Source: Natranaeroarchaeum sulfidigenes (lineage in GTDB: Archaea > Halobacteriota > Halobacteria > Halobacteriales > Natronoarchaeaceae). Taken from it: DNA of 64,000 nt. Of this stretch, positions 8,218-27,239 are shown piece by piece (the first letter of the stretch is position 1; every line of letters starts with the position of its first letter). The stretch is taken from the NCBI RefSeq assembly GCF_017094485.1, contig NZ_CP064786.1, positions 2,546,788-2,610,787 of the forward strand, written 5' to 3'. Both the position numbers and the translations under genes were made by a program. The notes under the pieces are model-generated. The model made no database searches and had not been told where the DNA came from. It saw only the letters and a program-made list of their open reading frames with translations.

Positions 8218-9165
8218 TTATGTTGGTGTATCGTACTTGTTACGGATATAGATCGCCGTCGCGTTCATCAGCAAGAGCACCGTCAGCAGCACAACGATCC
8301 CCGCCGCGGCGACGTGCTGGAACTCCGCTGCTGGCTGCTTGGCCCAGTCGAAGATCTGCATAGGCATCGCGGCAAACGCCCCGAGTGGACCGTCCGGCGG
8401 CGCGAACATCGCCGTCGCCGCGCCGATCAGCACCAGCGGTGCCGTCTCACCGATCGCCCGGGAGAGCGAGAGGATCATCCCGGTCATGATGCCCGGCAGG
8501 GCGTTCGGAAGCACCACGTTCCTGATCGTCTGCCAGCGCGTCGCGCCGACGCCGTAGGATGCGTTCCGCAGTGAGTCCGGAACCGCTCGTAACGCCTCCT
8601 GTGAGGAGACGATCACGATTGGTAGAATCAGCAGCGTCAGCGTTAGCGCACCCGCGAGCAGGCTCGATCCGGTGTTGAGCGCCCGGACGAAGATCGCCAG
8701 TCCGAGCAGGCCGTAGACGATCGAGGGGACGCCAGCGAGATTGGCGATGTTGGCGTTGATCAGTGTCGTCAACCAGTTGTCGCTGGCGTATTCTTCCAGA
8801 TAGATTGCCGCACCGACACCGAGGAACACGGTAAACAGCGCGGTCATCGCGATCAGGTAGATCGAACCGATCAGCGCCGGGTAGATACCGGCCGGACGTG
8901 TATCGGGATCGGCATACAGCGCGGGATCGAAATTCTCGACGAACCGCGATGGTGGGTACGTCAGGAACTCCCAGGTCACCCATCCCCACGACTCGTAAAT
9001 CACGTCTGCGATCAACGCGATCAGGGCGACGATACCGACCATCGTCGCCGACAGGCAGAGACCGACAAAGATCTTTCCGTACAGCCGTTTGCGCTGGACC
9101 TGTTCGCCTCCGTCGAGTGGGAAATCGTCGACGACTCCGCCGTCAGTTCGTGGTTTGTCGCTCAT
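8218..9165 (-). CDS. pstA: phosphate ABC transporter permease PstA
   Basis: One of two channel subunits for phosphate uptake. The 315 residues give six hydrophobic helices. The cytoplasmic EAA loop that contacts PstB is visible ([20 protein letters not shown] then [21 protein letters not shown]). The start overlaps the pstC stop in an ATGA, so the two permeases are probably translated together. Confidence 0.95.
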
Positions 9166-10097
9166 TGATACTCCTCCCTGTAGCGCGCTTTGATCGCCAG
9201 ACTCAGCATGTTCATCGCCAGCGTCATCATGAACAGCGTCATGCCGACCGCAAAGAGGCTCTGATAGCCGACCGAGCCCACCGAGACGTCACCCATCCCG
9301 ACGTTAACCATGTAGGATGTCATCGTCTGGATCGGTTCGAGTGGGTTCGCGGTGATCTGTGGCGTGATCCCTGCCGCCAGCGCGACCGCCATCGTCTCGC
9401 CGATCGCCCGCGAGATCGCGAGGATGTACGATGCCAGGATGCCCGACATCGCGGAGGGGACGACGATTCCGGTACTGACCTCGAATTTGGTCGCGCCGAG
9501 GCCGTAGCCCGCATTCCGCAACTCGTCCGGCACCGCGCTCATCGCGTCTTCCGACAGCGAGGAGACCATCGGGATGATCATGATTCCGACGACGATCGCC
9601 GCCGAGGCGGCGTTAAACGTCCCGGTCTGTGGGAAGACACGCTGGATGAGCGGCGTGATAAAGGACAGGGCGAAGAACCCGTAGACGATCGTCGGGACGC
9701 CAGCAAGCACTTCGAGTGTCGGCTTGATAATCGACCGAACACGAGCGCTCGCGTACTCGCTGAGGTAGATCGCCGTTGCCGTCCCGACCGGTAGAGCGAC
9801 GATTGCCGATCCGACCGTAATCAGCAGTGTCCCGTAGACCAGCGAGAGCACACCGTAACTCGGTGGGTTACGCTGTGGCGACCACTCTGAACCGGTGTAA
9901 AACGTCACGATCGATACATCCGAAAAGAACGCCCATGCGCCGCGGAACAACACGACGATGATACCAACTGTGGTTAGTACTGACAGGAACGCACAGGCGA
10001 AAAACACCCACTTCACGAACGTATTTCGGCGCTGTTCGCTCGCTGTCCCCGCGTTCGTGAGCTCCGTGCTATCGCTGTAGGAATCCGCGCCCGCCAT
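9162..10097 (-). CDS. pstC: phosphate ABC transporter permease PstC
   Basis: Partner permease to PstA. 311 residues with six transmembrane helices and the EAA-type loop [20 protein letters not shown] followed by [19 protein letters not shown]. The polar N-terminal 30 residues are typical of haloarchaeal PstC. It shares one base with the pstS stop (TGATG) and four with the pstA start. Confidence 0.95.
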
Positions 10098-11119
10098 CAG
10101 CGTACCTCCTCGATCTTTGCTTCGAGTCGGTCCGATTCACGTTCGACGAGTGAGTCCGGGATCGGGTAGAACTTCACCCGTGGTGCGACCCGCTGTGTCC
10201 ACGCGGGACTATCCGGGTCCTCGCGCCGGAAAAAGAACCGTGCGAACTCGCGGACGACATCGCGCTCAAGGTCGTTCACGTTGACGTAGATGTACATCGA
10301 TCGCGAGAGCGGCGTGTAAGCGGGTCCGTCAGGGTCGTCCTCGAACGCCCGGGCCACCGTTTCGTCAGTCGGGATGACGCCGCCGTTGTCGTCATCGACC
10401 TCGATCAGCTTCAGGTCGTCCTCGTTCTCGTAAAAGTAGCCTGCACCCCCGAAGCCGAGGGCGTCCCTGTTTCCACTGACTCCTCGAACGATGACGTTCG
10501 TATCTGCCGTCTCGTTGTAATCCCGGCGAATGTTCCCCGGCTCATCGTTGATTGCTTCGGTGAAGTAATCGTAGGTCCCCGACGCCGAGTCACGGCCGTA
10601 CAGCGAAATTTCCCTGTCGGGCCACTCGGAATCGAGATCACTCCACCGCTCTACATCGGAATCCTGCCGCCAGAGCCGGTGGAGCTGATCGACGGTCAAC
10701 CGGTCGACTGGTCCATCAGGATGGGCCATGATCGCGATTCCGTCGAGGACGGCTTCGAGTTCGAGGAACTCGATGCCGTTTGCCTCTGCATCCGCACGCT
10801 CCTCGTCGGTAATTCGACGACTGGCGTTCTGTAGCGCGGTTTCACCGGCTATGAACTGCTGAAAGCCAGCGCCGGTTCCCGAGCCACGGACGGGGATCCG
10901 AACCCGGTTGTTTCGCCACTGGAACTCCTCGGCGACTGCGGCGGTGTGGGGCAACACCGTATTTGAGCCGTCGACGATGATCTCTCCGGTCAGGTCGCTT
11001 TCCTCACCGCGAGTGATACATCCCGAAAGCCCAGCCAGTCCGACAGAACCCGCAGCAAAAAGGAACCCACGGCGCGACGATCCGCGAGTTCGCTCACCAG
11101 ACTCCCGGTGACTTGCCAT
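10097..11119 (-). CDS. pstS: phosphate-binding lipoprotein PstS
   Basis: Extracytoplasmic phosphate receptor that delivers phosphate to PstCAB. 340 residues. The N-terminus has a twin-arginine signal ([11 protein letters not shown]) ending in the lipobox LSGC (C34), so it is exported folded and lipid-anchored. The mature part has the PstS pattern: [13 protein letters not shown], the [11 protein letters not shown] phosphate loop, [13 protein letters not shown] and the AIEVxx-like C-terminal lobe. Two adjacent ATGs (11119, 11122) are possible starts. A TATA-like box lies at 11143-11152. Confidence 0.93.
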
Positions 11120-11142
11120 CATCAGTACTGTGGTGATAGGAG

Positions 11143-11152
11143 GTCTAAATAC
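11143..11152 (-). promoter_or_regulatory. TATA box of the pst operon
   Basis: The minus strand reads GTATTTAGAC, centred about 25-28 nt before the paired ATGs of pstS, giving a leaderless or nearly leaderless operon mRNA. Confidence 0.55.
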
Positions 11153-11166
11153 CCTTCTATTATTAG

Positions 11167-11182
11167 TATATAGCACTATATA
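11167..11182. promoter_or_regulatory. palindrome in the pstS-phoU intergenic region
   Basis: TATATAG-CA-CTATATA is a perfect 7+7 inverted repeat just upstream of the pst TATA box. The position matches that of phosphate-control elements upstream of other haloarchaeal pst promoters, although the sequence itself was not compared with any known element. Confidence 0.45.
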
Positions 11183-11287
11183 GAGATATGTTGGGAAATT
11201 CATCATATACTGTAGAGTGTCGAAAACACCATACAGAACACATTTAGCGCGACAATGGAATAGATGTCGACTCCATAGATAGGAGGT

Positions 11288-11296
11288 GTTTAGTAT
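11288..11296 (+). promoter_or_regulatory. TATA box of phoU
   Basis: GTTTAGTAT, centred about 25 nt before the phoU ATG at 11317, implies a leaderless transcript divergent from pstS. Confidence 0.5.
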
Positions 11297-11316
11297 CGGC
11301 TACACTATCTACCCGT

Positions 11317-12312
11317 ATGGAGACGCGGAAAGTCCAGATCACCGGCGGCTCGACGTACACGGTCTCACTTCCGAAGTCGTGGGCGACCGAGAACGACGTC
11401 GCCGCCGGGACGGAAGTCGAATTTCACGTCGAGGAAGACTCGCTTCTATTGACACCGAAGAGCGAGCGTGAACACACCGAGGGGACGCTTGACGTAACTG
11501 ATCTCGAAGGGGATCAGCTGACGCGTGCCGTGATGACGATGTACGTTAGCGGGTTCGACCGAATCGCCCTCGAAGGCGCGGTGATCACGAGCGACCAGCG
11601 CCGCGCCATTCGAGGTGCTACACAGAGCCTGATCGGCGTCGAGGTACTCGAAGAGACCGGCGAGCGTGTCGTCCTACAGGATCTTCTCGACTCTTCGGAG
11701 CTGTCGATCACCAACGCTGTCACACGTATGCGCCTGATCGCCGAATCGATGCTTGCGGACGCCGTCACAGCACTCACCGAGAACGACGACGACCTCGCTC
11801 GTGACGTCATCCAGCGCGACGACGACGTCGATCGGCTCTGGTTCGTCGTCTCACGGACCTTCCGGGCAACCTTGCGCTCGGCGAGCGCGGCGACAGATCT
11901 CGGCCTCCCACGCGAGGACTGTTTCGATTACCACTCCAGCGCTCGCCAGCTCGAACGCAGCGCCGATCACGCCGCCAAGATCAGCCAGCTCACGCTCCAG
12001 CTCGACGATATTCCCGAGGCAGTCAGCGAGGAGATCGTCGAACTCCACGAGGATGCTGCCGGCATCATCGACGAGGCCATGGACGCGCTGCTGGCCGACG
12101 ACAGTTCCCGGTCGAGCGAGATCGCCCACGAGGTCCGCGAGTCGATCCTTGGCCTCGACGAACAGACCCGCCGCATTCACGACAAACTCCGTCAGCTCGA
12201 TCCCCACGAGGCACAGCTGCTGGGGATCATCGTCGATTCGCTCTCCCGCAGTGCGGACTACGGCGGCAACATCGCCGAGACGGCACTGCAGAAGGCCGCG
12301 CCGCGGCCGTGA
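11317..12312 (+). CDS. phoU: PhoU-family phosphate regulator with N-terminal AbrB/SpoVT domain
   Basis: 331 residues. Residues 1-50 form a swapped-hairpin AbrB/SpoVT DNA-binding domain (METRKVQITGGSTYTVSLPK, then DVAAGTEVEFHVEEDSLLL). The rest is a helical PhoU repeat with the metal-binding pattern (AESMLADAV, HSSARQLERSADHAAKI, DSLSRSADYGGNIAETA). Bacterial PhoU represses the Pho regulon and restrains Pst activity. The DNA-binding domain suggests this protein could act directly at promoters, the closest being the shared pst/phoU region. Confidence 0.92.
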   Translation: METRKVQITGGSTYTVSLPKSWATENDVAAGTEVEFHVEEDSLLLTPKSEREHTEGTLDVTDLEGDQLTRAVMTMYVSGFDRIALEGAVITSDQRRAIRGATQSLIGVEVLEETGERVVLQDLLDSSELSITNAVTRMRLIAESMLADAVTALTENDDDLARDVIQRDDDVDRLWFVVSRTFRATLRSASAATDLGLPREDCFDYHSSARQLERSADHAAKISQLTLQLDDIPEAVSEEIVELHEDAAGIIDEAMDALLADDSSRSSEIAHEVRESILGLDEQTRRIHDKLRQLDPHEAQLLGIIVDSLSRSADYGGNIAETALQKAAPRP

Positions 12313-12326
12313 GCAAGCGTGTTACC

Positions 12327-12839
12327 TCAGTCACATTCGACTGTTCGATCGAGCGAAGTACTCACATCTGAGCCGGACGCTGTAATCGTGATGTCGGCAC
12401 CGCACTCGACCGACTCGAACGTGAGCGTTCGGCTCTCCCCGGCTGCGAGACTGATCTCCTCGTGTTGCTTTCCGACGCGTACTTCGACGTTGTCGAGTGT
12501 TACTCCGGGGGAAAATCGGTTGGTGAGCGTGAGCTCCAGCGTCGGTCCACCGTGGGCCGGTGCGGACGTCGCATTGTTCGCCGGAGCCGAGTCGTTGGCC
12601 ACATCGTCCGGTGGCGCTGTCGTCTCGCTCGTCGAGTTGCCTACTCCGGACGAGTTATCGGCTACACTCGACTGATCTACCGTCTGTTCGATACTCAGGT
12701 ACGCGTCCCCGTCATCGACGACCGCAACCTCGGTCGGTCGGTCGGCCGTCATCGCGCTGAACGCCCCGCTCGCGGAGACCAGCGATAGCGCGACCAGCAG
12801 TGCCACCGCCGCCACGAGAAACCGATGGTGTGCACTCAT
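12327..12839 (-). CDS. exported DUF1102-like protein of the secretion locus
   Basis: 170 residues. A signal peptide (about 1-26, LVAAVALLVALSLVSASGAF) is followed by a short segment ADRPTEVAVVDDGDAYLSI, which is shared in form with the exported proteins at 13936 and 14560. A T/S/N-rich linker (about 60-100) leads to a beta-rich C-terminal domain (LELTLTNRFSPGVTLDNVEV...) with two cysteines (VECGAD, TVECD). No enzyme motif is visible. The ATG at 12839 overlaps the stop of the upstream winged-helix gene in an ATGA, so the two are co-expressed. Confidence 0.8.
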   Translation of the reverse strand: MSAHHRFLVAAVALLVALSLVSASGAFSAMTADRPTEVAVVDDGDAYLSIEQTVDQSSVADNSSGVGNSTSETTAPPDDVANDSAPANNATSAPAHGGPTLELTLTNRFSPGVTLDNVEVRVGKQHEEISLAAGESRTLTFESVECGADITITASGSDVSTSLDRTVECD

Positions 12840-13456
12840 CGTTCGGCCACCTCCGGCGGTTCCTCGCGGGCCCCGACCCGCATTCGGTAGTGGTTGTCGT
12901 AGTAGTGGCCGAGCGCCGAAACGCCGAAGACGGTGACGAAAAAGACGTTCCAGGCGAACATCGAAAAGAACGTGAAGGGGACGACCCCGAGCCCGATCCC
13001 GACGAGACAGAGTCCACAGACTGCGGCCAGTCCGAGGTGATAGCTCCCCCATGGGATGCCGCGCTCGGGCAGGACGTCGACGTAGAAATCCGCGCTGGCG
13101 GCGGGTTCCGTGAGCCGGATAGTTCCCCGCTGGGCGTCGTACTCGACAAACCCGTATTCGTCCATCTTTGGTAGATGAAACTGTCGAAGCGCGTTCACCA
13201 CCCGTTTGCGCTCCTGAGCGGTGAGTCGCTCCGGCGGCTTGTCGTACTCCCAGCCAGCGATCCGTTCAGCCAACTCACTCAGTTCGACCGGCTCGGGATG
13301 CCGTCCGTTGAATCCGTGCTGGCGCTTGAGATAGTGAATCGCGAACCGTCGTCGCCGGTTGCTCAACACCTCCAGTACGGAATCGCGCGAGAAATCGTGC
13401 TGAGCGATCGAAGCGTTCCGCGTGTTGCCTGACGTGTCGGAAGACGTGCTCATCAC
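12836..13456 (-). CDS. membrane-anchored winged-helix regulator (DUF7344-like)
   Basis: 206 residues. Residues about 25-125 look like a winged helix: the LSNRRRRFAIHYLKRQ helix, a recognition-helix region around RKRVVNALRQFHLPKMDEYG and a wing FVEYDAQRGTIRLTEPA. Two transmembrane helices follow (about 145-190). This architecture is common in haloarchaea and is paralogous to the product at 20883-21497. It is probably a membrane-tethered transcription factor for the adjoining exported protein, with which it overlaps by 4 nt. The start may be the first or second of two ATGs. Confidence 0.82.
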   Translation of the reverse strand: MMSTSSDTSGNTRNASIAQHDFSRDSVLEVLSNRRRRFAIHYLKRQHGFNGRHPEPVELSELAERIAGWEYDKPPERLTAQERKRVVNALRQFHLPKMDEYGFVEYDAQRGTIRLTEPAASADFYVDVLPERGIPWGSYHLGLAAVCGLCLVGIGLGVVPFTFFSMFAWNVFFVTVFGVSALGHYYDNHYRMRVGAREEPPEVAER

Positions 13457-13935
13457 TCGTTAAAAGAGTTCAATGTGGTATCATTTTAGTATATTCAGCT
13501 AAACCGTGGTAACCTCATACAACAAATGACGAGAGTCTGACACGGATATGCGGACCGAGCAGTCGGTTCAGGATCAAAAAAGTGAGTGACCGCAGAAAAT
13601 ATGTTTGCCCAATAATATGATCCATTTGAAAAATTCTATGTGATTTCGGCGGTTCCGAGGACGAACCAGTATCATATCTTCCAGAAGGAACCGAAATCGA
13701 TCGTACTGTCCTGAAGACACACACGATGGTATCAGTATCCTAACTGATTAGAAGAGGCCCTTTGTCCACTCTCCATAGACTCTATTGCCATAGTACAGGC
13801 GTTCTATCCGTCACTGCTGGTCGTATATTCCAAAGTGGGATACTGTGGTGTGATCCAATGCACGCCGGAGTTGATACGGTAGGACGAGACGAGCTGTCGA
13901 GCGTACCGGCGTACGACAATGACGGTGACAACACT
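13457..13935. other. divergent intergenic region (479 nt) with promoter elements and an inverted repeat
   Basis: No convincing gene is present. At its left end is the promoter of the minus-strand regulator (13481-13490). An inverted repeat pairs 13642-13656 (GATTTCGGCGGTTCC) with 13687-13698 (GGAACCGAAATC) with a two-base bulge and could fold in RNA. A TATA-like CGTATATTCC near 13824 may drive the exported protein at 13936 with a leader of roughly 85 nt. Base composition is more AT-rich than in the neighbouring genes. Confidence 0.5.
13481..13490 (-). promoter_or_regulatory. TATA-like box for the winged-helix/exported-protein operon
   Basis: The minus strand reads ACTAAAATGA, centred about 29-32 nt before the paired ATGs of the regulator gene. 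Confidence 0.45.
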
Positions 13936-14514
13936 ATGGAACGACGCAAATTCGTAATCGGATTGGGGAGTGCAGCCGCAGGAGCAAGCGCGCTTGTGGG
14001 TAGTGGTGCGTTCAATGTTGCCCGTGCCGACCGTGAGATGACTGTCGAAGTCGTCGACGATGAGGATGCATATCTCGGGCTTGAAGCGACGAGTGCTTAT
14101 TCGGAAATGGATGGCGGTCAGCTACGCGTTGCATTTGACGGGTCCATCGGAGGGCAGAATGGAGATGGGCTCAGTGAAAACGCAAACTACGTATTCACGG
14201 ACGTATTCGCGATCCGAAATAACGGGACGGACACGATCAGTGTCACCCTGTCGGAGGAACTAGGTGCAATCACGTGGGACACGAACTACCCGCGTGCGTA
14301 CTACTCATTCGACCAAATTGGCACTTCAAACGATGTGGATGGTGATGGTGATTTCACTGGTGGTACCGCAGCCGACGACGCGGATCTCAACCCAGGAGAT
14401 AGGCTATTCGTTCACTTCGAGTTCGTCGGTCGCGAGGAGTCTGATCGGTTCGACCAAGGTGATGTCGATGACCCACCAGAGAACATCGGCATCTATACAG
14501 AGGTAACTGACTAG
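13936..14514 (+). CDS. exported DUF1102-like protein A
   Basis: 192 residues. The N-terminus MERRKFVIGLGSAAAGASAL is a Tat-like signal that ends in VGSGAFNVARADREMTVEVV and then DDEDAYLGLEAT, the same exit segment found in the proteins at 12327 and 14560. The mature domain is beta-rich and very acidic (YVFTDVFAIRNNGTDTISVTL; GDRLFVHFEFVG), resembling a surface or fibre subunit. I chose the ATG at 13936 because the signal peptide begins there. It is followed at 45 nt by a paralogue. Confidence 0.82.
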   Translation: MERRKFVIGLGSAAAGASALVGSGAFNVARADREMTVEVVDDEDAYLGLEATSAYSEMDGGQLRVAFDGSIGGQNGDGLSENANYVFTDVFAIRNNGTDTISVTLSEELGAITWDTNYPRAYYSFDQIGTSNDVDGDGDFTGGTAADDADLNPGDRLFVHFEFVGREESDRFDQGDVDDPPENIGIYTEVTD

Positions 14515-14559
14515 TTCTTACTTTCTGCTTAAGTAGGATAAAAACCGACTACCTAAACA

Positions 14560-15078
14560 ATGAATCGAAGACGATTTCTCGGCGTAACTGCCGGGACAGC
14601 AGCTGGCTCTGCCCTCCTCGGGAGCGGAGCGTTCAACATCGCCCGCGTAGACCGGGGACTGGACGTCGAAGTTGTCAAAGACCAGCTCGCATACCTCAGT
14701 CTCAGCGAGACACCCGACGATCAGGGGCGATCGTATGAAGTCGGTGGTCAGGTTTTCCTCGAAATTCCAGGTATCCACGAGGAGGCGGACGCAGAGGGCG
14801 TCGGGATGGATTCCGAGTACTGGTTCGACGATATCCTTCAGATCACGAACCGGGGGACTGAAACGATCGAGGTGGATACGAAAATCGAGATGGATGACGG
14901 GATCGAGGTAACGCTATACGATTCCGACGACCCTGACAGAACACTGTTCACGGACGAACCATTCGTCCTGTCAGTCGGTGAGTCCATCACAGCTGGTCTG
15001 TACATCAACACGTTCGGCGTCAGTACTGGTTCGTACTCGGGAGAACTAACGATCGCCGGGGAGGCAACTGAAGACTGA
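14560..15078 (+). CDS. exported DUF1102-like protein B
   Basis: 172 residues, paralogous to the preceding gene. The signal MNRRRFLGVTAGTAAGSALL carries RRRF, then GSGAFNIARVDRGLDVEVV and a DQLAYLSLSE segment. The mature part has the pattern of a beta sandwich with repeated 'nrGtetIeV' and 'vGeSitagl' strands (YWFDDILQITNRGTETIEV; FVLSVGESITAGLYI). It is probably extracellular. A T-run at 15085-15091 follows the stop. Function is inferred only from context: subunit or accessory of the secretion locus. Confidence 0.82.
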   Translation: MNRRRFLGVTAGTAAGSALLGSGAFNIARVDRGLDVEVVKDQLAYLSLSETPDDQGRSYEVGGQVFLEIPGIHEEADAEGVGMDSEYWFDDILQITNRGTETIEVDTKIEMDDGIEVTLYDSDDPDRTLFTDEPFVLSVGESITAGLYINTFGVSTGSYSGELTIAGEATED

Positions 15079-15084
15079 TCGGTC

Positions 15085-15091
15085 TTTTTTT
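15085..15091 (+). terminator. oligo-T terminator after the DUF1102-like pair
   Basis: A run of seven T residues begins 7 nt after the stop at 15078, a typical archaeal termination signal. It separates the two exported-protein genes from the signal-peptidase operon, which has its own TATA box. Confidence 0.5.
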
Positions 15092-15167
15092 CAACACCAC
15101 CATTGTCCCCCGGCGCATGCAATATTGGCTGTCGAGCCAGAATATCTATCCTAACCATAGTATGTGG

Positions 15168-15179
15168 CATATATAAAAG
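15168..15179 (+). promoter_or_regulatory. strong TATA box for the signal peptidase/DUF5305 operon
   Basis: GCATATATAAAAG-type element. The first start codon is at 15326, so transcription beginning about 27 nt downstream would leave a leader of roughly 125 nt, unusually long for a halophile, in which leaderless messages dominate. Confidence 0.6.
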
Positions 15180-15325
15180 AAATGTAAGGACGGTTCTGTA
15201 GTTGGGATGTCCTGTCTTGACCCGGAGGTGCGGCCACAAACTGGACCTCAACACAATCGGCGAAGCATAGAGGTCGTCTGGTTCTCGTCGGTACCCGTCG
15301 ACACGAGTGATCCAAGGCGATAACT

Positions 15326-16459
15326 ATGCGTTCGTATCTCAAAACTGGGCTCGTCGTCCTGCTGTTACTCCTGGTCGCCGCTTTGCTTGTCGGCCAGATC
15401 CTCGGCCAGCCGATCCTGCTCTCGTACGCCGAAACCGACAGCATGGAGCCGACGATCGACGCCGGTGACGGCTTCGTCGCGATTCCGGGCGAGCTCACCG
15501 GCGAGGTCGAGGAAGGCGACGTCATCGTCTTCCAGTCCGAGGCGGTCCACGGCGGTGACGTGACCACACACCGCGTCGTCGGGGTCACCGAGGAGGGTTA
15601 CATCACACAGGGCGACGCCAACCCATTCACCGATCAGGCGGACGGCGAACCGCCCGTAACAGACGGGCAGGTACTGGCGAAAGCCTGGCAGGTGAACGGA
15701 CAGATCGTGACGATCCCTCACCTCGGCACGGCCGTCGAAACAGTCGAAGGTGGCGTCGACCGCGTGCAGTTCACGGTCGCGTCCGTCCTCGGACTCGCCG
15801 CGCTTGCCCGGGTCCCGTGGCTCGCGTTCCTGTTCTTGCTCGTGAGTGCCGCCGCGTTCCTGGCCGGGATACTCGACGGAGGTCGCCGACATCGCGAGCG
15901 TGGCCGAACGCGGTCGAGAGAGGGCGTGTACAACGCCGGAGTGGTGATCGCGGTTCTGACGTTCGTCCTGATCGCGACCGCGGCCGGAACCATGCTCGTC
16001 GCCGGGGGGTCACAGGAGTACGGGATTGTGAGCGCGGAGTTCGACTCCGACCGATCGGACGTAATCTTGCAGGGCGAAACGGCGGAGTGGACGGTCACCA
16101 CGCGGAACAGCGGCGTCCTGCCGATGTATGTCCTGACGGAGCCGACCAGCCCCGGCATCGAGGTCGAGCCCGACAGCCAGTATCTCGGCCAGCGCAGCGA
16201 GGCAAACGCCACCGTGCACGTGAGTGCGCCGCCGGAGACCGGCTACTACGTCAGAACTGTCTCCGAGTATCGCTATCTGGCGGTGCTTCCACCCGCGGTG
16301 ATCGGGGCGCTGCACTCGGTGCATCCGTGGGTGGCGATCGGCACGATCAGCGCCACGATCGGGGCGGCGTTCGCCCTGCCGCTGGCGTTGCTGTTCGGGA
16401 CGGGGACGATCCGGACGCGACAGTCGAGACGAACGATTCTGGGGGGAAGACAATCATGA
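15326..16459 (+). CDS. Sec11-type signal peptidase I fused to a membrane/Ig-like module
   Basis: 377 residues. An N-terminal helix (about 7-30) leads to a signal peptidase domain with the archaeal/ER catalytic set: serine S39 in TDSMEPTI, histidine H82 in TTHRVVGV and aspartate D97 in TQGDANP. Two hydrophobic helices (about 150-182) and one at about 213-232 follow. A beta-rich extracytoplasmic domain (about 240-310, AEWTVTTRNSGVLPMYVLTE) and a last helix end the protein. The extra C-terminal half is absent from ordinary signal peptidases. It overlaps the DUF5305-like gene in an ATGA, indicating a joint role in maturing the local exported proteins. Confidence 0.88.
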   Translation: MRSYLKTGLVVLLLLLVAALLVGQILGQPILLSYAETDSMEPTIDAGDGFVAIPGELTGEVEEGDVIVFQSEAVHGGDVTTHRVVGVTEEGYITQGDANPFTDQADGEPPVTDGQVLAKAWQVNGQIVTIPHLGTAVETVEGGVDRVQFTVASVLGLAALARVPWLAFLFLLVSAAAFLAGILDGGRRHRERGRTRSREGVYNAGVVIAVLTFVLIATAAGTMLVAGGSQEYGIVSAEFDSDRSDVILQGETAEWTVTTRNSGVLPMYVLTEPTSPGIEVEPDSQYLGQRSEANATVHVSAPPETGYYVRTVSEYRYLAVLPPAVIGALHSVHPWVAIGTISATIGAAFALPLALLFGTGTIRTRQSRRTILGGRQS

Positions 16460-17580
16460 CTGACGACGACCGACAGACTGAGGTATCGACATCGGAACGA
16501 ATGGGGGACGTCCGCAGGGTTCTCGCGGATCGGTACACGATCGTTGTCGTGACACTCGTCGTACTGGCGCTCGTCGGCGGGGCGTTCACGGCGACGACGA
16601 TCGCCGGGTCCGGCGATGCCGAGCAAGAAGAGGGGACTACGTGGAGCGACTCCGGCGAGTTCACGCATTCGGCGATCGTGCAGAACGATACCGGGGTGTT
16701 CGAACAGGGCGACGAGTTACGCGACAGAGGGACGTACTTTACGCGCGCCACTCCCGAGCTGGACGTCGCGTACGAGTACCGTCTGGATACGGAAAACGCG
16801 TCAGCTGACGTCGAGACGGAGCTACTGCTGATACTTCAGTCGGTCGGCGACGACGAAGTCTACTGGGAACTGACGGAACCACTCGATAGCCAGCAGAGCG
16901 ACTCGCTCGCAACAGGGGAGTCCCACGCCGTCGGAGCGACGGTCGACGTTGTGGAGATCGAGGAACGTTTCGCAGCCATCGAGGACGACCTCGGAGCGTC
17001 TCCGGGCGACACTGAAGCGCGAATCGTCGCTCGCTCGGAGATCGACGGTACTGTGGGAACCGAGTCGGTCACCCACCACCGCGAGGACGTGCTCGTCATC
17101 AGCCCCGACGGAGATACCTACGGTGTCGACGCGCAACTGGAGCAGCGACCGAGTGGCCAGCAGGTCGAAGGCGTGGCCCAAACCGGGGACGACGGCTGGT
17201 TCCAGGCTGTCGGTGCCCCACTGGTGGCAACAGTCTCGTTACTCGGACTCGTCGGCGTCGTTCTCGCACGGAAGCGGGGGTATCTGGACGTTTCGGCGGA
17301 CACGAGACACCGGGCCGACCGCGAGCGATTCGACGACTGGATCACCGTCGGGGCTCTGCCCGCCGCGCTCACCGATCAGCCGAGGATAGATGTGGATTCA
17401 CTGGAAGGACTCGTCGACGTGGCGATCGACAGCGGGCGGCGCGTCATCGAGGACACGAACGACAACTGCTACTACGTTACTGACGGCCCGCTGCTGTACA
17501 GATACGAGCCACCAGTGGGGACGGTGGTCGGCGAAGACGAATCGGACGAACCGACTGACGGGGCCGACGCTCCTGAGTGA
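16456..17580 (+). CDS. DUF5305-like bitopic membrane protein
   Basis: 374 residues. A short polar N-terminus is followed by a transmembrane helix (about 28-48, IVVVTLVVLALVGGAF). A large extracytoplasmic domain (about 50-250) is rich in beta-strand pattern (FTHSAIVQNDTGVFEQGDEL; VAYEYRLDTENASADVETEL). A second helix (about 255-275) precedes a cytoplasmic domain (about 280-374) with YVTDGPLLYRYEPP near its end. Genes of this kind commonly neighbour archaeal signal peptidases and SipW-type substrates; I infer a chaperone, anchor or assembly role. Start and stop overlap with the signal peptidase gene. Confidence 0.8.
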   Translation: MTDDDRQTEVSTSERMGDVRRVLADRYTIVVVTLVVLALVGGAFTATTIAGSGDAEQEEGTTWSDSGEFTHSAIVQNDTGVFEQGDELRDRGTYFTRATPELDVAYEYRLDTENASADVETELLLILQSVGDDEVYWELTEPLDSQQSDSLATGESHAVGATVDVVEIEERFAAIEDDLGASPGDTEARIVARSEIDGTVGTESVTHHREDVLVISPDGDTYGVDAQLEQRPSGQQVEGVAQTGDDGWFQAVGAPLVATVSLLGLVGVVLARKRGYLDVSADTRHRADRERFDDWITVGALPAALTDQPRIDVDSLEGLVDVAIDSGRRVIEDTNDNCYYVTDGPLLYRYEPPVGTVVGEDESDEPTDGADAPE

Positions 17581-17959
17581 TCCCGTTCGACGAGGTTCGA
17601 GAGGGTTCTTCGGTATCGTCCGGGACTGGTCCCCGGGCCGGTGGACGGGCCCGACCGGTCGACGCGAATAGATCGGAGGACCGGATAATGATCGTTCCGC
17701 CACCGGAGTCACTGACTGACAGACAGAAAGCGGATGCCCGTGTCTTCAAGCGCGGTGAGGATGTCAATGTAGGGACCCCACGACACTGTTACAGTCCGTT
17801 CTGATCCCGTTATTAAGCCACTACGATAAGTTATACACATACTTTCGATCTAGTGGTCCCTTCTAGGAACTTTTCAGATAGTGTATATATACGCCCCCGT
17901 ATCCGGCCACTCTCTCTTACGTGGCAGTCGGCGGGACGCCGCTGTCGCGTGTGACAACT
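17581..17959 (+). other. intergenic region (379 nt) before the large SipW-type gene
   Basis: Upstream half has no supported gene; a frame that starts at the GTG overlapping the previous stop would make only 75 residues with no recognisable features. The downstream half turns AT-rich and holds the TATA box at 17884-17891, which is best assigned to the gene at 17960. Confidence 0.5.
17884..17891 (+). promoter_or_regulatory. TATA box for the SipW-type exported protein
   Basis: TATATATA-type sequence (TATATATA within GTGTATATATACG). Initiation about 27 nt downstream gives a leader of about 45 nt to the ATG at 17960; an in-frame GTG at 17921 is closer but would put extra residues before the signal peptide. 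Confidence 0.55.
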
Positions 17960-19603
17960 ATGGCAGACGAAGACAGCGGACGACTCAATCGACGGAGCGT
18001 ACTGGCCGGGATCGGCGCAGCCGGTGCCGGTGCAGCGCTTGGAGGATTCGGCACATCAGCACTCTTCACCGACGAAGAGCATCTAGACGACAACGAGATC
18101 GTTGCGGGCGAGCTAGACCTGTTCATCGACTGGCAGGAGAAGTACGACAAGGGAGATGGGCTAAAGCTCATCGACGTGTTCCCTGCGGATGAAAAAGGGG
18201 GTAAAGAACAGGCAGACCTCGAAATAGACGACTTCTGTAAGACGTTCGGCGAGCTCGGTCCACCGCTCCACAGCAAGCGGCGGTCAATCATCGACTACGA
18301 CGATGACCGGGAAGTAACGAAAGGCAACGAGACGGACGGGACGGAGCCGCTCGTACAACTCGACGACGTCAAGCCCGGTGACCGCTGGGAGACGACCTTC
18401 AGCTATCACCTCTGTGGCAACGACGGCTGGGTCTGGTTCCGGACGAAGAACAAGCGCTACGAGGACGAAGACGCGAACAACAAGCCGGAGAACCACCTCG
18501 CCGACAAAGCGACCGCTCGCGTCTGGTACGATATGGACGACGGCGACGACGCGGAGCCCGGCGACAACGTCTACCAGCCTGGCAAAGAGCCCATCATCGC
18601 GCAGGGCACGCTCCGGGAAGTGTTGGACGAGCTCAACGACGGCGTGTTGCTCGACGCGGATCCCGCGATCGCTCCAACGAATGGGGACAACGATGGGTTC
18701 GAGTGTATCGAGCTGGACAAAATCGACAACGAAGACGATACCGAGCTCGAGGTCGGCCGGGAGTACACTTTCGAGGACGGCGACGAGGAGATTACGGTCA
18801 CGATCACCGGCCTCCGGCTCAAAGACGAAGACGAAAACGGAGAGGTCGTCGGCTTCGACTGGATGAGCGACACCCCGATCTGTCAGATCGACATGGTTGG
18901 CGGTCCGCCTGGCGATACACGCACACAAGAGAATGTCTACGACTGTGAGATGAGCGGGACTGCGTTCACCTCGTTCGGTGCCGGTCGCGACGGCGAGAAG
19001 CGCTTCGGCGTCAGTAACTTCACGTTCTACTACTGCGATATCGACGAGAAAAACGATGAGGAGAACGGTCCGACCTGCACCGAAGCGTCGACGACCCGGT
19101 ACATCGGCTTCGAGTGGCAGCTCCCACTGGACGTCGGCAACGAGATCCAGCGTGATCGGCTGGAGTTCGACCTCGGCTTCTACACCGAGCAGTGCCGTCA
19201 CAATGACGACCCGCAGAATCCGTTCGTCGACGAGGAATTCCCCAACAACCCGTGGCTCGCTGACGCACAAACTCCGAAAGGAGGCGTCTTCTGGAACAAC
19301 CCTGAAGACGATTTTGCCCTACAAGAGGGAGACGAGTTTGGCGAGTTGCCGAGTCAGGGTCAACCACTCTACGCTAATCCAACAGACCAGACTGTCACTG
19401 TCTCGGATAGCGATGGGACGAGTGCGACTAGTACGTTTGATCTGGAACCCTATGATGGAAATCCTCTTGGCGAAGGGCCTGGAGAATGGTATCGGATTCC
19501 AACGGGTGCTGGAACTCCAATGCCCGACCAAGGAGACTTCAGGCTGGTTTCCATCGAGGAGACGGCGGACGGTTTCGATGTCGTATGGGAACCGGTTGAG
19601 TAA
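17960..19603 (+). CDS. large SipW-dependent/TasA-camelysin-like exported protein
   Basis: 547 residues. The N-terminus has a twin-arginine/h-region signal (NRRSVLAGIGAAGAGAALGG) whose exit reads FGTSALFTDEE..., then NEIVAGELDLFIDW. That pattern of a phenylalanine-aspartate motif followed by 'agxLDLxxdW' is the hallmark of SipW-dependent precursors such as TasA and camelysin. The mature protein is very acidic and unusually contains eight cysteines spread between about residues 90 and 420, so disulfides are likely. The middle (about 200-300) has an EF-hand-like density of acids but no clear loop. The 3' end is more AT-rich than the rest. Confidence 0.82.
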   Translation: MADEDSGRLNRRSVLAGIGAAGAGAALGGFGTSALFTDEEHLDDNEIVAGELDLFIDWQEKYDKGDGLKLIDVFPADEKGGKEQADLEIDDFCKTFGELGPPLHSKRRSIIDYDDDREVTKGNETDGTEPLVQLDDVKPGDRWETTFSYHLCGNDGWVWFRTKNKRYEDEDANNKPENHLADKATARVWYDMDDGDDAEPGDNVYQPGKEPIIAQGTLREVLDELNDGVLLDADPAIAPTNGDNDGFECIELDKIDNEDDTELEVGREYTFEDGDEEITVTITGLRLKDEDENGEVVGFDWMSDTPICQIDMVGGPPGDTRTQENVYDCEMSGTAFTSFGAGRDGEKRFGVSNFTFYYCDIDEKNDEENGPTCTEASTTRYIGFEWQLPLDVGNEIQRDRLEFDLGFYTEQCRHNDDPQNPFVDEEFPNNPWLADAQTPKGGVFWNNPEDDFALQEGDEFGELPSQGQPLYANPTDQTVTVSDSDGTSATSTFDLEPYDGNPLGEGPGEWYRIPTGAGTPMPDQGDFRLVSIEETADGFDVVWEPVE

Positions 19604-19917
19604 ATAACCACTATTGTCTCCCTACCTTTTTGCTAATACCAGATTGGATTAGTTTAATCACCTTCTCAATTGAGAGGTACAGTAATTCCAGACGTGATCT
19701 TCAGATCTCCGTTGGTTGCCGGTCTATAGCTACAAACTCTGAATACACCTGTTAGTTCTGGATCAGACCGACCTACCAAACTGTATATAATTCGGTGAGG
19801 ATTCGGAGTGCTTGATTCAGTATATGAACTCTTCTTATCAAAAACGCTCCACGGGTTATTGTACAATCCCGCCAAATCACCATCTAAAACGGCTAGACTA
19901 ATTTGCAAAAAAGACTA
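19604..19917. other. AT-rich intergenic region (314 nt) between converging transcripts
   Basis: A frame on the minus strand (19666-19908) runs 80 codons with AT-rich but protein-like usage, beginning at a TTG 9 nt after the preceding minus-strand stop; it could be a remnant of a longer gene. A short T-run at 19627-19631 may terminate the plus-strand gene. The composition differs visibly from the genes on both sides. Confidence 0.45.
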
Positions 19918-20262
19918 CTAGTCGTCCGCATCCGTCTCGTTCGCAGTCGCCTCACCCTCTGCCGCTTCGTCGTCCGCGTCTGCAGTGGAGTCCTCACTAT
20001 CGTCCGCCTCGTCATCGCTATCCTCCGTCGTGTCTTCAGCCTCAGCATCCGACGATTCGTTCACGTCCGACTGGCCGGGCGATTCATCGTGCGGTCCACC
20101 CGCAGTTTCATCCGGCGTCCCGGCGTCCTCACTCCCTTCGATCTCGTTTCCGTCCAGACTCACGCCGTCGCTCAACAGCCCGCCGGTCATCCCGATCGAG
20201 AGGCTGAGCAGCCCCACGAGCGCGATCACGCAGACGAGCGCGACTCGACGTCGACGCCTCAT
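19918..20262 (-). CDS. small exported acidic protein with SipW-type signal exit
   Basis: 114 residues. A basic start (MRRRRRVALV) and one hydrophobic helix lead to GGLLSDGVSLDGNEI, which resembles the SipW-type exit but without the following large domain. The remaining 75 residues are almost entirely D, E, S, T and A (for example EDTTEDSDDEADDSEDS). It could be a short substrate or a propeptide-like partner of the signal peptidase with which its start overlaps (ATGA at 20259-20262). Confidence 0.75.
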   Translation of the reverse strand: MRRRRRVALVCVIALVGLLSLSIGMTGGLLSDGVSLDGNEIEGSEDAGTPDETAGGPHDESPGQSDVNESSDAEAEDTTEDSDDEADDSEDSTADADDEAAEGEATANETDADD

Positions 20263-20876
20263 CGATCCACCTCCTCGTCGTCCGTCTCGGCGTCGTCCGA
20301 CTGATCAGATTCGTCGTCAGTATCGGCTTCGGCGGAGTCATCGGAGTCGTCGGTCTCCGACTCGTCCATCCCTTTTTTCAGCTCCCAGAGTTCGGTGCCG
20401 ACCAGCGCCAGCCCCGGCAGGATGATCAGCGAGACGATGCCGATCGTCGTCTGCGCGAAGGCGACGAAGCGTCCGAAGTACGGGATCGTCAGCGTGACCT
20501 CGCCGATCACGCGGTCAGCGGGAACCGGCGCGGGGTCCACGGCGTCGTTGGCATCGCCCTGAGTGAGGAACTGGAGCTGACTGTCTTCCTCCTGCACCTC
20601 GACGACGCGGTGGGTAGTCCGCCGGTCGTCGTCACCCGGCGGGGCGAACGTGATCACGTCGTCCTCCTCGATCCGTTCCGGAGGACGTTCGGTGACGATC
20701 ACGACGTCACCGCCCTCGATCTCGGGCGACATGCTGTCGGAGGTGACGACGTAGCTTTCGTCGGCACCGATCACCTGCGGGACGGCGACCACGACGACCG
20801 CACAGAGCGTGATGATGAGGGCAAATCCCAGCAGGACGCGCGCGGCGGCGCTTGCCTTCCGGCGAAGATACGACAT
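20259..20876 (-). CDS. Sec11-type signal peptidase I
   Basis: 205 residues. An N-terminal anchor (about 14-35) precedes the catalytic domain with serine S48 (TSDSMSPEI), histidine H89 (TTHRVVEV) and aspartate D108 (LTQGDAND), the Sec11 triad that replaces the bacterial lysine by histidine. A second helix (about 129-158) is followed by a strongly acidic tail. It is unlike the 15326 enzyme in lacking the extra beta domain. Sandwiched between a winged-helix regulator and a small exported protein, it is probably a dedicated rather than general peptidase. Confidence 0.88.
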   Translation of the reverse strand: MSYLRRKASAAARVLLGFALIITLCAVVVVAVPQVIGADESYVVTSDSMSPEIEGGDVVIVTERPPERIEEDDVITFAPPGDDDRRTTHRVVEVQEEDSQLQFLTQGDANDAVDPAPVPADRVIGEVTLTIPYFGRFVAFAQTTIGIVSLIILPGLALVGTELWELKKGMDESETDDSDDSAEADTDDESDQSDDAETDDEEVDR

Positions 20877-20882
20877 GCTCGA

Positions 20883-21497
20883 TCACCCCCTGGGCGGCCC
20901 CTCGCTCCCGACCTGCATGCGTCTATCGTGCAGTACGTGCGCTACCCCTGAGGCGAAAAACAGCGTCGAGAACAGCAACGCCGCGACCCCGCCGGCCAGC
21001 ATCGAAAAGGGTGGGAGTCCGATCAGGACGAGTGTAGCGAACCCCACACAGAGCGCGCCGAGCCCGGCGTAATACGTACTCCACGGGATATCGTCGTGCG
21101 GGACGACATCGAGGTAGACGTCCAGTTGTGCTGCGGCGTCAGTCAGTACGACCGTCGACCGGTCGGCATCGAACTCGACGACGCCGCCGTCGTCCATCTT
21201 CGGCAGGTGTGACTGCCGGAGCGCGGTATACACGCGAACCCGTTGCTGGTAGGTGATCTCCTCGGGATCCGTGTCGTTTTCCCACGCGGCGATCTGCCGC
21301 GAGAGCGTCCTGAGCGTTGCGCTCCCGTCATTCTGCCGGAGATAGTGCAGGACGTGGCGGCGTCGACGACAACTCAACATCTGAAAGGCCAGTTCCTGGT
21401 CGATCGGCTGACGATCGGTCCGAGCCTGTGTCTCATCGTCTGGTTCCGTTCCATCGGGAGTGACCGTCTCACTCTGCTGGACCGCCGTTGCGCTCAC
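20883..21497 (-). CDS. membrane-anchored winged-helix regulator (DUF7344-like), paralogue
   Basis: 204 residues. The winged-helix part (about 33-130) has LSCRRRRHVLHYLRQN, VRVYTALRQSHLPKMDDGG and VVEFDADRSTVVLTDAAA, aligning closely with the product at 12836-13456. Two transmembrane helices (about 148-195) end in a short tail. It starts at a GTG, and a TATA-like element (TAATATATTT on the minus strand) is seen near 21590, giving a leader of about 65 nt. It heads a three-gene operon with a signal peptidase and an exported protein, so it is a candidate local regulator. Confidence 0.82.
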   Translation of the reverse strand: MSATAVQQSETVTPDGTEPDDETQARTDRQPIDQELAFQMLSCRRRRHVLHYLRQNDGSATLRTLSRQIAAWENDTDPEEITYQQRVRVYTALRQSHLPKMDDGGVVEFDADRSTVVLTDAAAQLDVYLDVVPHDDIPWSTYYAGLGALCVGFATLVLIGLPPFSMLAGGVAALLFSTLFFASGVAHVLHDRRMQVGSEGPPRG

Positions 21498-25898: not shown

Positions 25899-27239
25899 CT
25901 AGGCGGCTTCTTCTAGAATGTCTTCAACTTCTTGGAACTCAGGATTTTCAATAATCCTTTTGTTTATTCTTGGCTGCCGGGTGCTAAGAAGAACAGGTTC
26001 ATCAGGCGTACCCATGACTGAAATATTGTTTCCTGTTTCTCTATGGTAGCTTGTTGCAGTATCGATTGCAGGCATAACGTTTTCACGTGGCTGGTTCTCC
26101 CTTATCATCTCCAAACTTTTAGAACCAAACTCATCAGTAACCATGACGTCCTCGTCAACAGTTCCATTAGGATTAGAATTTGTACGGAAAAACGTATTCA
26201 TCCTTTCCATCTTTGTACTGTATAGTAGTCCGTTCATTTCACCTTCCTCAAAATCAGCTATAATCGGTATGTAATTGTCGTTGCTGCCTGTCTTCATATC
26301 AATGTCCTCTAAGTTAGTCACATGGTTTACTTCGTTGAACCATGTTTCATGGTGGAACCAGTCGCCGTCAATATAGAGGAGTTTACTACCATGACCGTTA
26401 CCATCTTTGTCAATGTGTGCGGGATTGCTGAATCCTGCTGCGTATATTTCGTCTTCCTCATAGTTAGTCTTCTCAATTATTATCTGTTTCTCTGCTGCAG
26501 CTTTCTGTGCTGCCCATCCTGAGTTTGTACTCATTTCTTCTCTTACGTGTTCTCCGACTATGCCTATTATCTCTTTTTTACTATTTGCGTTATTTAGTTT
26601 TGTTCCGTCGAAGTTTCTTACTACGCCTGAACCTCCGGGTACATCTGACGGTCTTCCTGATTCATAACTTTGTAGTCTTCCACGGAACACCTCCATATCT
26701 AGCTTGTATGTATCAAAGTTGTATGGTGATTCGAAACCGGTTATTTTTTCGTTATTGACGTAGGCTTCAAGAACATAGTTGAGAGGGACTTTCTTTTCTA
26801 ACAGTATTTCTTCGTTCACTTGTTCTCCGTCTTTTTCTGCTGTTATCTGTAAGCGGTTTTCTCCGTTGTACGGTAGTTGTGCGGTGCTGATCCGGTATAA
26901 ACTGTCTTGTGTGTCGTATTCTAGTTGTTCTTCTATACTTAGTTTTAAGTTGTCTGGATTTACTGTTTCTCCGTCTTTTATTAGGTTTATTTGTAGTTCT
27001 GCGTAATCTTGATCTCTTACTGTGTCTTCTGTGTATTCCCAGTTGTTTAACTCTCTCAAGCTGATCTGCGTTTTAACTTCATTAACTTCTATATTATGTC
27101 TTGTCTCCTCCGTTGTATCCGCAGGAATAACGTCTCTACCATCCGTGTTCTCTGTCTCCGTGCATCCAGCTAAACCGCCAGCTGTTGCTGCGGTGGTTGA
27201 CAATAGGAATTTCCGGCGTGAGTAAACCTCTTGGTTCAT
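25899..27239 (-). CDS. Tat lipoprotein encoded by an AT-rich gene, function unknown
   Basis: 446 residues. A twin-arginine signal SRRKFLLSTTAATAGGLAGC has RR at 8-9 and the lipid-modified cysteine at 26, so the product is exported folded and anchored. The mature part is rich in N, E, K and Y. It carries two beta-rich segments (about 60-165) and a mixed C-terminal half containing HIDKDGNGHGSK, HHETWFNEVNH and DNYIPIIADFEEGEMNG. No enzyme motif is recognised. The gene is strikingly more AT-rich than its neighbours and its codons favour A/T endings, which points to recent transfer. Promoter elements appear at 27276-27285. Confidence 0.8.
   Translation of the reverse strand: MNQEVYSRRKFLLSTTAATAGGLAGCTETENTDGRDVIPADTTEETRHNIEVNEVKTQISLRELNNWEYTEDTVRDQDYAELQINLIKDGETVNPDNLKLSIEEQLEYDTQDSLYRISTAQLPYNGENRLQITAEKDGEQVNEEILLEKKVPLNYVLEAYVNNEKITGFESPYNFDTYKLDMEVFRGRLQSYESGRPSDVPGGSGVVRNFDGTKLNNANSKKEIIGIVGEHVREEMSTNSGWAAQKAAAEKQIIIEKTNYEEDEIYAAGFSNPAHIDKDGNGHGSKLLYIDGDWFHHETWFNEVNHVTNLEDIDMKTGSNDNYIPIIADFEEGEMNGLLYSTKMERMNTFFRTNSNPNGTVDEDVMVTDEFGSKSLEMIRENQPRENVMPAIDTATSYHRETGNNISVMGTPDEPVLLSTRQPRINKRIIENPEFQEVEDILEEAA

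Follow-up and report, generated by a model that had tools for sequence, protein, structure and literature searches.

A Tat-fimbria-like gene cluster beside a TasA/SipW-type cluster in Natranaeroarchaeum sulfidigenes: probably two surface-fibre loci

Some 9 kb (positions 12327-21497) of a 64,000-nucleotide stretch of the Natranaeroarchaeum sulfidigenes genome, which we call the window, are given over to exported proteins, signal peptidases and regulators. A sequence-only reading of this block, made by a model without database searches, had taken it for one self-contained TasA/camelysin-like system for fibres or matrix, equipped with two dedicated signal peptidases. We arrive at a different picture. 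With a probability of roughly 0.8, the block is two independent surface-fibre loci standing side by side, a cluster resembling the Tat-fimbriae (tafi) of haloarchaea having entered by insertion at the junction of phoU with an older cluster of the TasA/SipW type. We refer to the first as module A (12327-17580) and the second as module B (17960-21497), and name genes and their products by the left-hand coordinates given in Table 1.

Related genomes keep the two modules apart

At the corresponding junction of the sister species (genome G006, locus L052), phoU is followed by orthologues of 17960, 19918, 20259 and 20883 and then by pyrF, a contiguous run with nothing equivalent to 12327-17580. Because nucleotide homology to this genome stops at window position 12314 and resumes at 17843, we regard module A as inserted, the simplest reading being a 5.5-kb gain in the lineage of the window. 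Two genomes of another genus (loci L055 and L056) also have phoU beside a homologue of 17960, with the block 12327-17580 missing. Neither direct repeats of at least 16 bases nor marks of a mobile element were found at the edges of the segment, and there is no tRNA gene in the window. Guanine plus cytosine (GC) content is 59% in the segment against 61-62% in its flanks, a modest gap, and drops to 54% in the 13936 gene. The adjacency of the two systems looks like a local accident.

The wider survey took in 147 genomes of the order and 80 named haloarchaeal loci, the best 80 of 410 from a regulator-profile scan of 84,980 species. At no fewer than 78 of 102 scorable DUF5305 loci, a TafE-like gene lay 10 kb away or less (1.4 expected by chance), and weaker peptidase matches, mostly of the long type, were near DUF5305 in 42 of 62 cases. 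SipW-like peptidases, for their part, sat near genes with SipW exits in 43 of 49, and 41 genomes had both (exits in 45, peptidase in 44). Only 3 of 116 DUF5305 loci, one of them in the window, had a SipW exit nearby. Across the scored loci, named and earlier ones together, the tafi-type set occurred in 41 and the SipW-type set in 28, some loci having neither; the window was the only overlap, and the only scored 20-kb locus with both peptidase types. Both modules keep their gene neighbourhoods from genome to genome, yet the two almost never adjoin. Synteny across Halobacteria, which the earlier reading had proposed as a check, thus holds for each peptidase with its own substrates and breaks down for the block as a whole. 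Because related genomes carry the two gene sets apart, an outcome that reading had itself named as fatal, the single-system view fails.

The signal exits divide in the same manner. They had been described as related, and exits are indeed present, but in two classes: '(S)GAF...[A/V]DR' in 12327, 13936 and 14560 (tafi/DUF1102) and 'SALFTDEE...AGELDL' in 17960 (SipW/TasA). The latter, quoted in the earlier reading, is genuine and scores above the cut-off of TIGR04088, the curated model for SipW substrates. Twin-arginine (Tat-like) signals are present in 13936, 14560 and 17960. Sequence homology between the pilins of the two modules was sought by profile comparison and none was found (hhalign probability 0.3%).

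The two regulators (12836 and 20883) are 38% identical, and both carry hydrophobic segments at the C terminus. In a maximum-likelihood tree of 84 such DUF7344 proteins, regulators grouped according to the kind of module they belong to: the tree has 3 label changes, where shuffled labels average 28. Near-copies contribute to this clustering. The 20883 regulator groups with those of module B (support 100/99).

Module A resembles the Tat-fimbriae

Judged by its genes, module A is a tafi-like cluster. It has three pilins of the TafA/TafE/DUF1102 type, a long signal peptidase, a DUF5305 protein and a membrane-tethered DUF7344 regulator. We stop short of calling these taf equivalogs because the pilins fall far below the TafA and TafE cut-offs and neither TafC nor TafF has an equivalog here. 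The description of Tat-fimbriae dates from 2025 (Galeva et al., iScience 28:111793, as cited through PMC12687288), and a structure released that year (PDB 9P0A) bears the title 'Structure of Natrinema sp. J7-2 Tafi pilus'. Our map of the taf cluster is built on that title and on NCBIfam names. The reference taf locus (L060) clears every curated cut-off (TafA 250.6, TafC 567.6, TafE 224.6 and TafF 581.7 bits) and, like module A, also holds a long peptidase, DUF5305 and DUF7344.

Against the same NCBIfam models, the 13936 product scores 49.8 bits for TafE (E=3.1e-13; cut-off 155) and 36.6 bits for TafA (E=4.6e-9; cut-off 190), 14560 scores 29.8 and 26.9 bits, and the small 12327 product matches TafE at E=2.3e-4, far below the cut-off. 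No window protein matches TafF, and matches to TafC are marginal and below cut-off (E 0.02-0.1). The 12327 gene lies downstream of the regulator, the place that TafC occupies in the curated cluster; a subunit gene directly follows 26 of 42 tafi-type regulators. The 13936 and 14560 exits read 'GSGAFN', and the twin-arginine stretches of these two pilins are ERRKFVIGLG and NRRRFLGVTAG; the TAT_signal model matches 14560 weakly, below its cut-off.

A profile of 74 relatives of the module A pilins matches the Tafi pilus (9P0A_C) over the full length of the profile at E=2.3e-18, and the 14560 sequence by itself does so at E=6.7e-5. Mature 14560 is modelled by AlphaFold2 as an all-beta protein with a predicted local distance difference test score (pLDDT) of 82.9. 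The model matches donor-strand pilins: FimG and, all within the five best matches, FimA, the thread of Sulfolobus, the pilus of Tafi and the bundling pilus AbpA, with modest values (E from 9e-4 to 5e-3; template-modelling (TM) scores of about 0.44-0.54). Module A shares with Tat-fimbriae homologous pilins with twin-arginine signals, the long peptidase and its DUF5305 and DUF7344 neighbours; it differs in the low-scoring pilins, the lack of equivalogs of TafF and of the lectin-like TafC, and the extra small subunit 12327. With AbpA (PDB 7UEG; Wang et al. 2022) and the Sulfolobus thread (PDB 7PNB; PMC9715654) it would share a donor-strand-type beta-sandwich, seen in the 14560 model, whereas neither has a significant sequence match to the module A pilin profile.

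The 15326 peptidase has extra membrane segments, with several hydrophobic stretches and a C-terminal extension, and is 50% identical to its counterpart in a taf-like cluster of Natrinema salsiterrestre. The DUF5305 gene overlaps it by one base.

A second tafi-like cluster lies at about 369-376 kb in the same genome (369000-376200; locus L054, 6806-14299). It encodes TafA-like (94 bits), TafE-like (90 bits) and TafC-like proteins, a CARDB protein in the TafF position, a long peptidase, DUF5305 and DUF7344, and has an orthologous cluster in the sister species. The tafi-like cluster of that species includes a protein of 1458 amino acids (L053, 11544-15920) with a Taf-like exit, a possible giant adhesin subunit.

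Module B resembles TasA/SipW

Module B is, again on gene content, a SipW/TasA-type cluster; the TasA/camelysin-like label of the earlier reading does not extend to module A. The 17960 product has a Tat-like signal, a SipW exit and a putative display region inserted in a TasA-like core. Its family alignment runs from an AGELDL strand through 'DVKPGD..E.TFS.HLCDNPGY.WL', 'WYD' and a variable insert to 'GFEWWLP..VGNEIQ.D...FDLGFYTEQCRHND'. Of 35 members, 8 have a von Willebrand A domain as the insert; that of 17960 is unlike von Willebrand A, and that of the sister species is different again. Von Willebrand A inserts occur in TasA-like subunits at L091 (4750-6528), L153 (3849-5972) and related loci, often in tandem arrays of subunit genes.

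Of the Pfam families, camelysin (PF12389) comes closest to 17960, at 18.9 bits against a cut-off of 22.5, and the relative at L153 passes with 24.7. The AlphaFold2 model of the mature protein found its best PDB match in the TasA fibre (8AUR; Foldseek probability 0.99, E=1.8e-3), every other match listed falling below 0.5, and much of its strand core has a pLDDT of 75-92. A TasA fold is likely on this model. The 17960 family profile matched no PDB sequence. The structure prediction that had been proposed as a check, here made for 14560 and 17960, favours donor-strand-type fibre folds in both modules, less surely for 17960.

The 20259 peptidase matches the SipW model at E=2.3e-31, below the cut-off of the Bacillus equivalog nonetheless. 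The gene for the small 19918 protein, with its degenerate SipW exit, overlaps the peptidase gene, and at 11 of 30 module B peptidase loci a small protein of this kind overlaps or abuts the peptidase. Bacillus subtilis encodes the accessory protein TapA in tapA-sipW-tasA (PMC9674648), and by position 19918 is a possible TapA-like starter or anchor. In the two genomes of another genus mentioned above (G007 and G008), the 17960 homologue has no SipW exit and no SipW-like peptidase lies adjacent (L055, 7947-10337; L056, 7810-9699). Loss of the exit alongside a missing peptidase is consistent with dependence of the one on the other, though only two genomes are involved.

The likeness to TasA-SipW-TapA (PMC9674648, PMC10151520) and camelysin is fourfold: a SipW-type exit, a SipW-like peptidase, the TasA fibre as best fold match and a small second substrate coupled to the peptidase, this last a candidate TapA counterpart by gene position. 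Module B differs in its twin-arginine signal, in its DUF7344 regulator and in the size of the mature subunit, about 510 amino acids including the insert, where the TasA fibre entry has 233 residues. In RefSeq, homologues of 17960 that have a signal peptidase gene next to them, as on the Halomontanus rarus plasmid NZ_CP119798, are called 'SipW-dependent-type signal peptide-containing' or 'VWA domain-containing', labels taken from the signal or the domain alone that assign no fibre role; relatives among them carry von Willebrand A inserts.

We would tentatively go further, at somewhat less than even odds, and propose that module B exemplifies a haloarchaeal kind of fibre, spread across the order, for swapping surface domains. 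Exchangeable display regions (von Willebrand A in several relatives, and differing even between sister species) would sit between the halves of a TasA-like core, together with a dedicated SipW-like peptidase, a small starter made by coupled translation and a membrane-tethered regulator specific to the module.

How the two loci may work

From the gene content, homologies, predicted folds and conserved, separable neighbourhoods we infer that both modules form fibres and process their own subunits. In module A, the 13936 and 14560 pilins would be exported by the twin-arginine translocation (Tat) pathway, cut by the long peptidase 15326 and polymerised through donor-strand complementation. The 12327 product might be a minor, tip or base subunit, and DUF5305 might anchor or assemble the fibre. 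In module B, 17960 would be exported, cut at its SipW-type exit by the short peptidase 20259 and polymerised as TasA is, leaving the inserted region exposed, while 19918 may, like TapA, initiate the fibre or hold it in place. Each cluster would answer to its own membrane-tethered DUF7344 regulator.

Weighing the alternatives

Several observations tell against two complete and independent fibre loci. The module A pilins, homologous as they are, lie a long way under the TafA and TafE equivalog cut-offs, and equivalogs of TafC and TafF are missing, so that module A may not suffice for a complete fibre; moreover, the genome has a fuller tafi-like cluster elsewhere. The 12836 regulator falls on the module A side of the tree, but on a long and unsure branch. 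The 17960 model is only moderate (mean pLDDT 64.4) and its TM-scores to 8AUR are low (0.18/0.36), probably on account of the insert and tail. Functional cross-talk between such close neighbours could also occur. It is conceivable, if doubtful, that module A is what is left of a tafi cluster, or an incomplete one, and gives only minor or variant subunits to the fibres of the 369-376 kb cluster, which has the TafA-, TafE- and TafC-like proteins, peptidase and DUF5305. Module A nevertheless has an intact peptidase, DUF5305, regulator and open frames of its own, and compact clusters of similar content are found elsewhere (L106, L114).

The exported proteins could instead be adhesins or enzymes of the cell surface or S-layer, such as camelysin-like proteases, that do not polymerise. 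The sub-threshold camelysin match of 17960 and the suggestion of adhesion in the von Willebrand A inserts of relatives lean that way; we think it improbable, given fold and profile matches that point to polymerising donor-strand pilins and a tafi relative whose pilus structure has been solved. Very improbable, to our minds, is a single fibre or matrix system, integrated and regulated as a unit, that uses two dedicated peptidases. Its attractions are the adjacency of the genes in this genome, the similar parts lists and the kinship of the regulators. Set against these are the sister-species site, held by module B alone, a phoU-substrate-regulator-pyrF order that lacks module A in the two genomes of another genus, module A-type clusters standing alone in dozens of species, the rarity of DUF5305 near SipW exits and pilin profiles unrelated by sequence. 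As an ancestral unit, one system is contradicted by synteny. Two independent loci, brought together by an insertion, remains our preferred account.

The block and its surroundings

The gene list of the sequence-only reading was right in substance. The block does hold two DUF7344 winged-helix proteins, two Sec11/archaeal-type peptidases (both with Ser, His and Asp motifs), DUF5305 and the exported proteins at 12327, 13936, 14560 and 17960, to which we add a fifth, 19918, that had been overlooked. The 12327 gene starts at 12842, overlapping the upstream regulator, and not at 13052.

Table 1. Features of the 12327-21497 block.
Feature	Coordinates	Strand	Details
Small exported DUF1102-like protein, module A	12327..12842	-	Sec-type signal, 'SGAF..ADR' exit
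DUF7344 winged-helix regulator, membrane-tethered, module A	12836..13456	-	Pfam 97.8 bits; hydrophobic 138-182
Tafi-like pilin subunit (DUF1102), twin-arginine signal, module A	13936..14514	+	PF06510 30.9 bits (cut-off 22.2)
Tafi-like pilin subunit (DUF1102), twin-arginine signal, module A	14560..15078	+	PF06510 24.0 bits
Long tafi-type Sec11-like signal peptidase, 377 amino acids, module A	15326..16459	+	TIGR02228 56.4 bits (cut-off 51.85)
DUF5305 membrane protein, module A	16459..17580	+	PF17231 169.8 bits
Segment missing at the phoU/module B junction of the sister species	12315..17842		Nucleotide homology break
Large TasA/camelysin-like subunit, 547 amino acids, module B	17960..19603	+	TIGR04088 25.9 bits (cut-off 19)
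Small exported protein, 114 amino acids, degenerate SipW exit, module B	19918..20262	-	4-bp overlap with 20259 peptidase
Short SipW-like signal peptidase, module B	20259..20876	-	TIGR02228 107.4 bits
DUF7344 winged-helix regulator, membrane-tethered, module B	20883..21497	-	Pfam 104.5 bits

To the left of the block lie pst genes and phoU, to the right pyrF and the gene of a HAD hydrolase. The pstA-pstC-pstS genes and phoU (8218-12312) also have module B as their neighbour in G007, G008 and the sister species. Further along the window (25899-27239, minus strand), a GC-poor stretch of about 40%, possibly foreign, encodes an exported protein of 446 amino acids with a Tat-lipobox-like signal that matched no Pfam family. 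Comparison of the window proteins with PHROGs gave nothing meaningful.

What the two loci may mean

Both kinds of fibre are already known: tafi from 2025 and the TasA and AbpA donor-strand fibres from 2022 (PMC9674648), as are archaeal threads (PMC9715654), and RefSeq labels relatives of module B by SipW signal or von Willebrand A domain. Less familiar are the domain inserts inside TasA-like subunits, the coupled small substrates and the module-specific regulators. The analysis separates two fibre systems that a reading of the sequence alone merges, and offers genomic signatures by which to tell them apart: a long peptidase, DUF5305 and TafE-like pilins for the one, a short SipW-like peptidase and SipW-exit substrates for the other, with DUF7344 largely sorting by module. 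Should the fibres prove real, there are haloarchaea with both a Tat-fimbria and a TasA-type matrix fibre. Shared descent of the bacterial and archaeal TasA/SipW systems would then become testable, as would the display of inserted domains such as von Willebrand A on donor-strand fibres.

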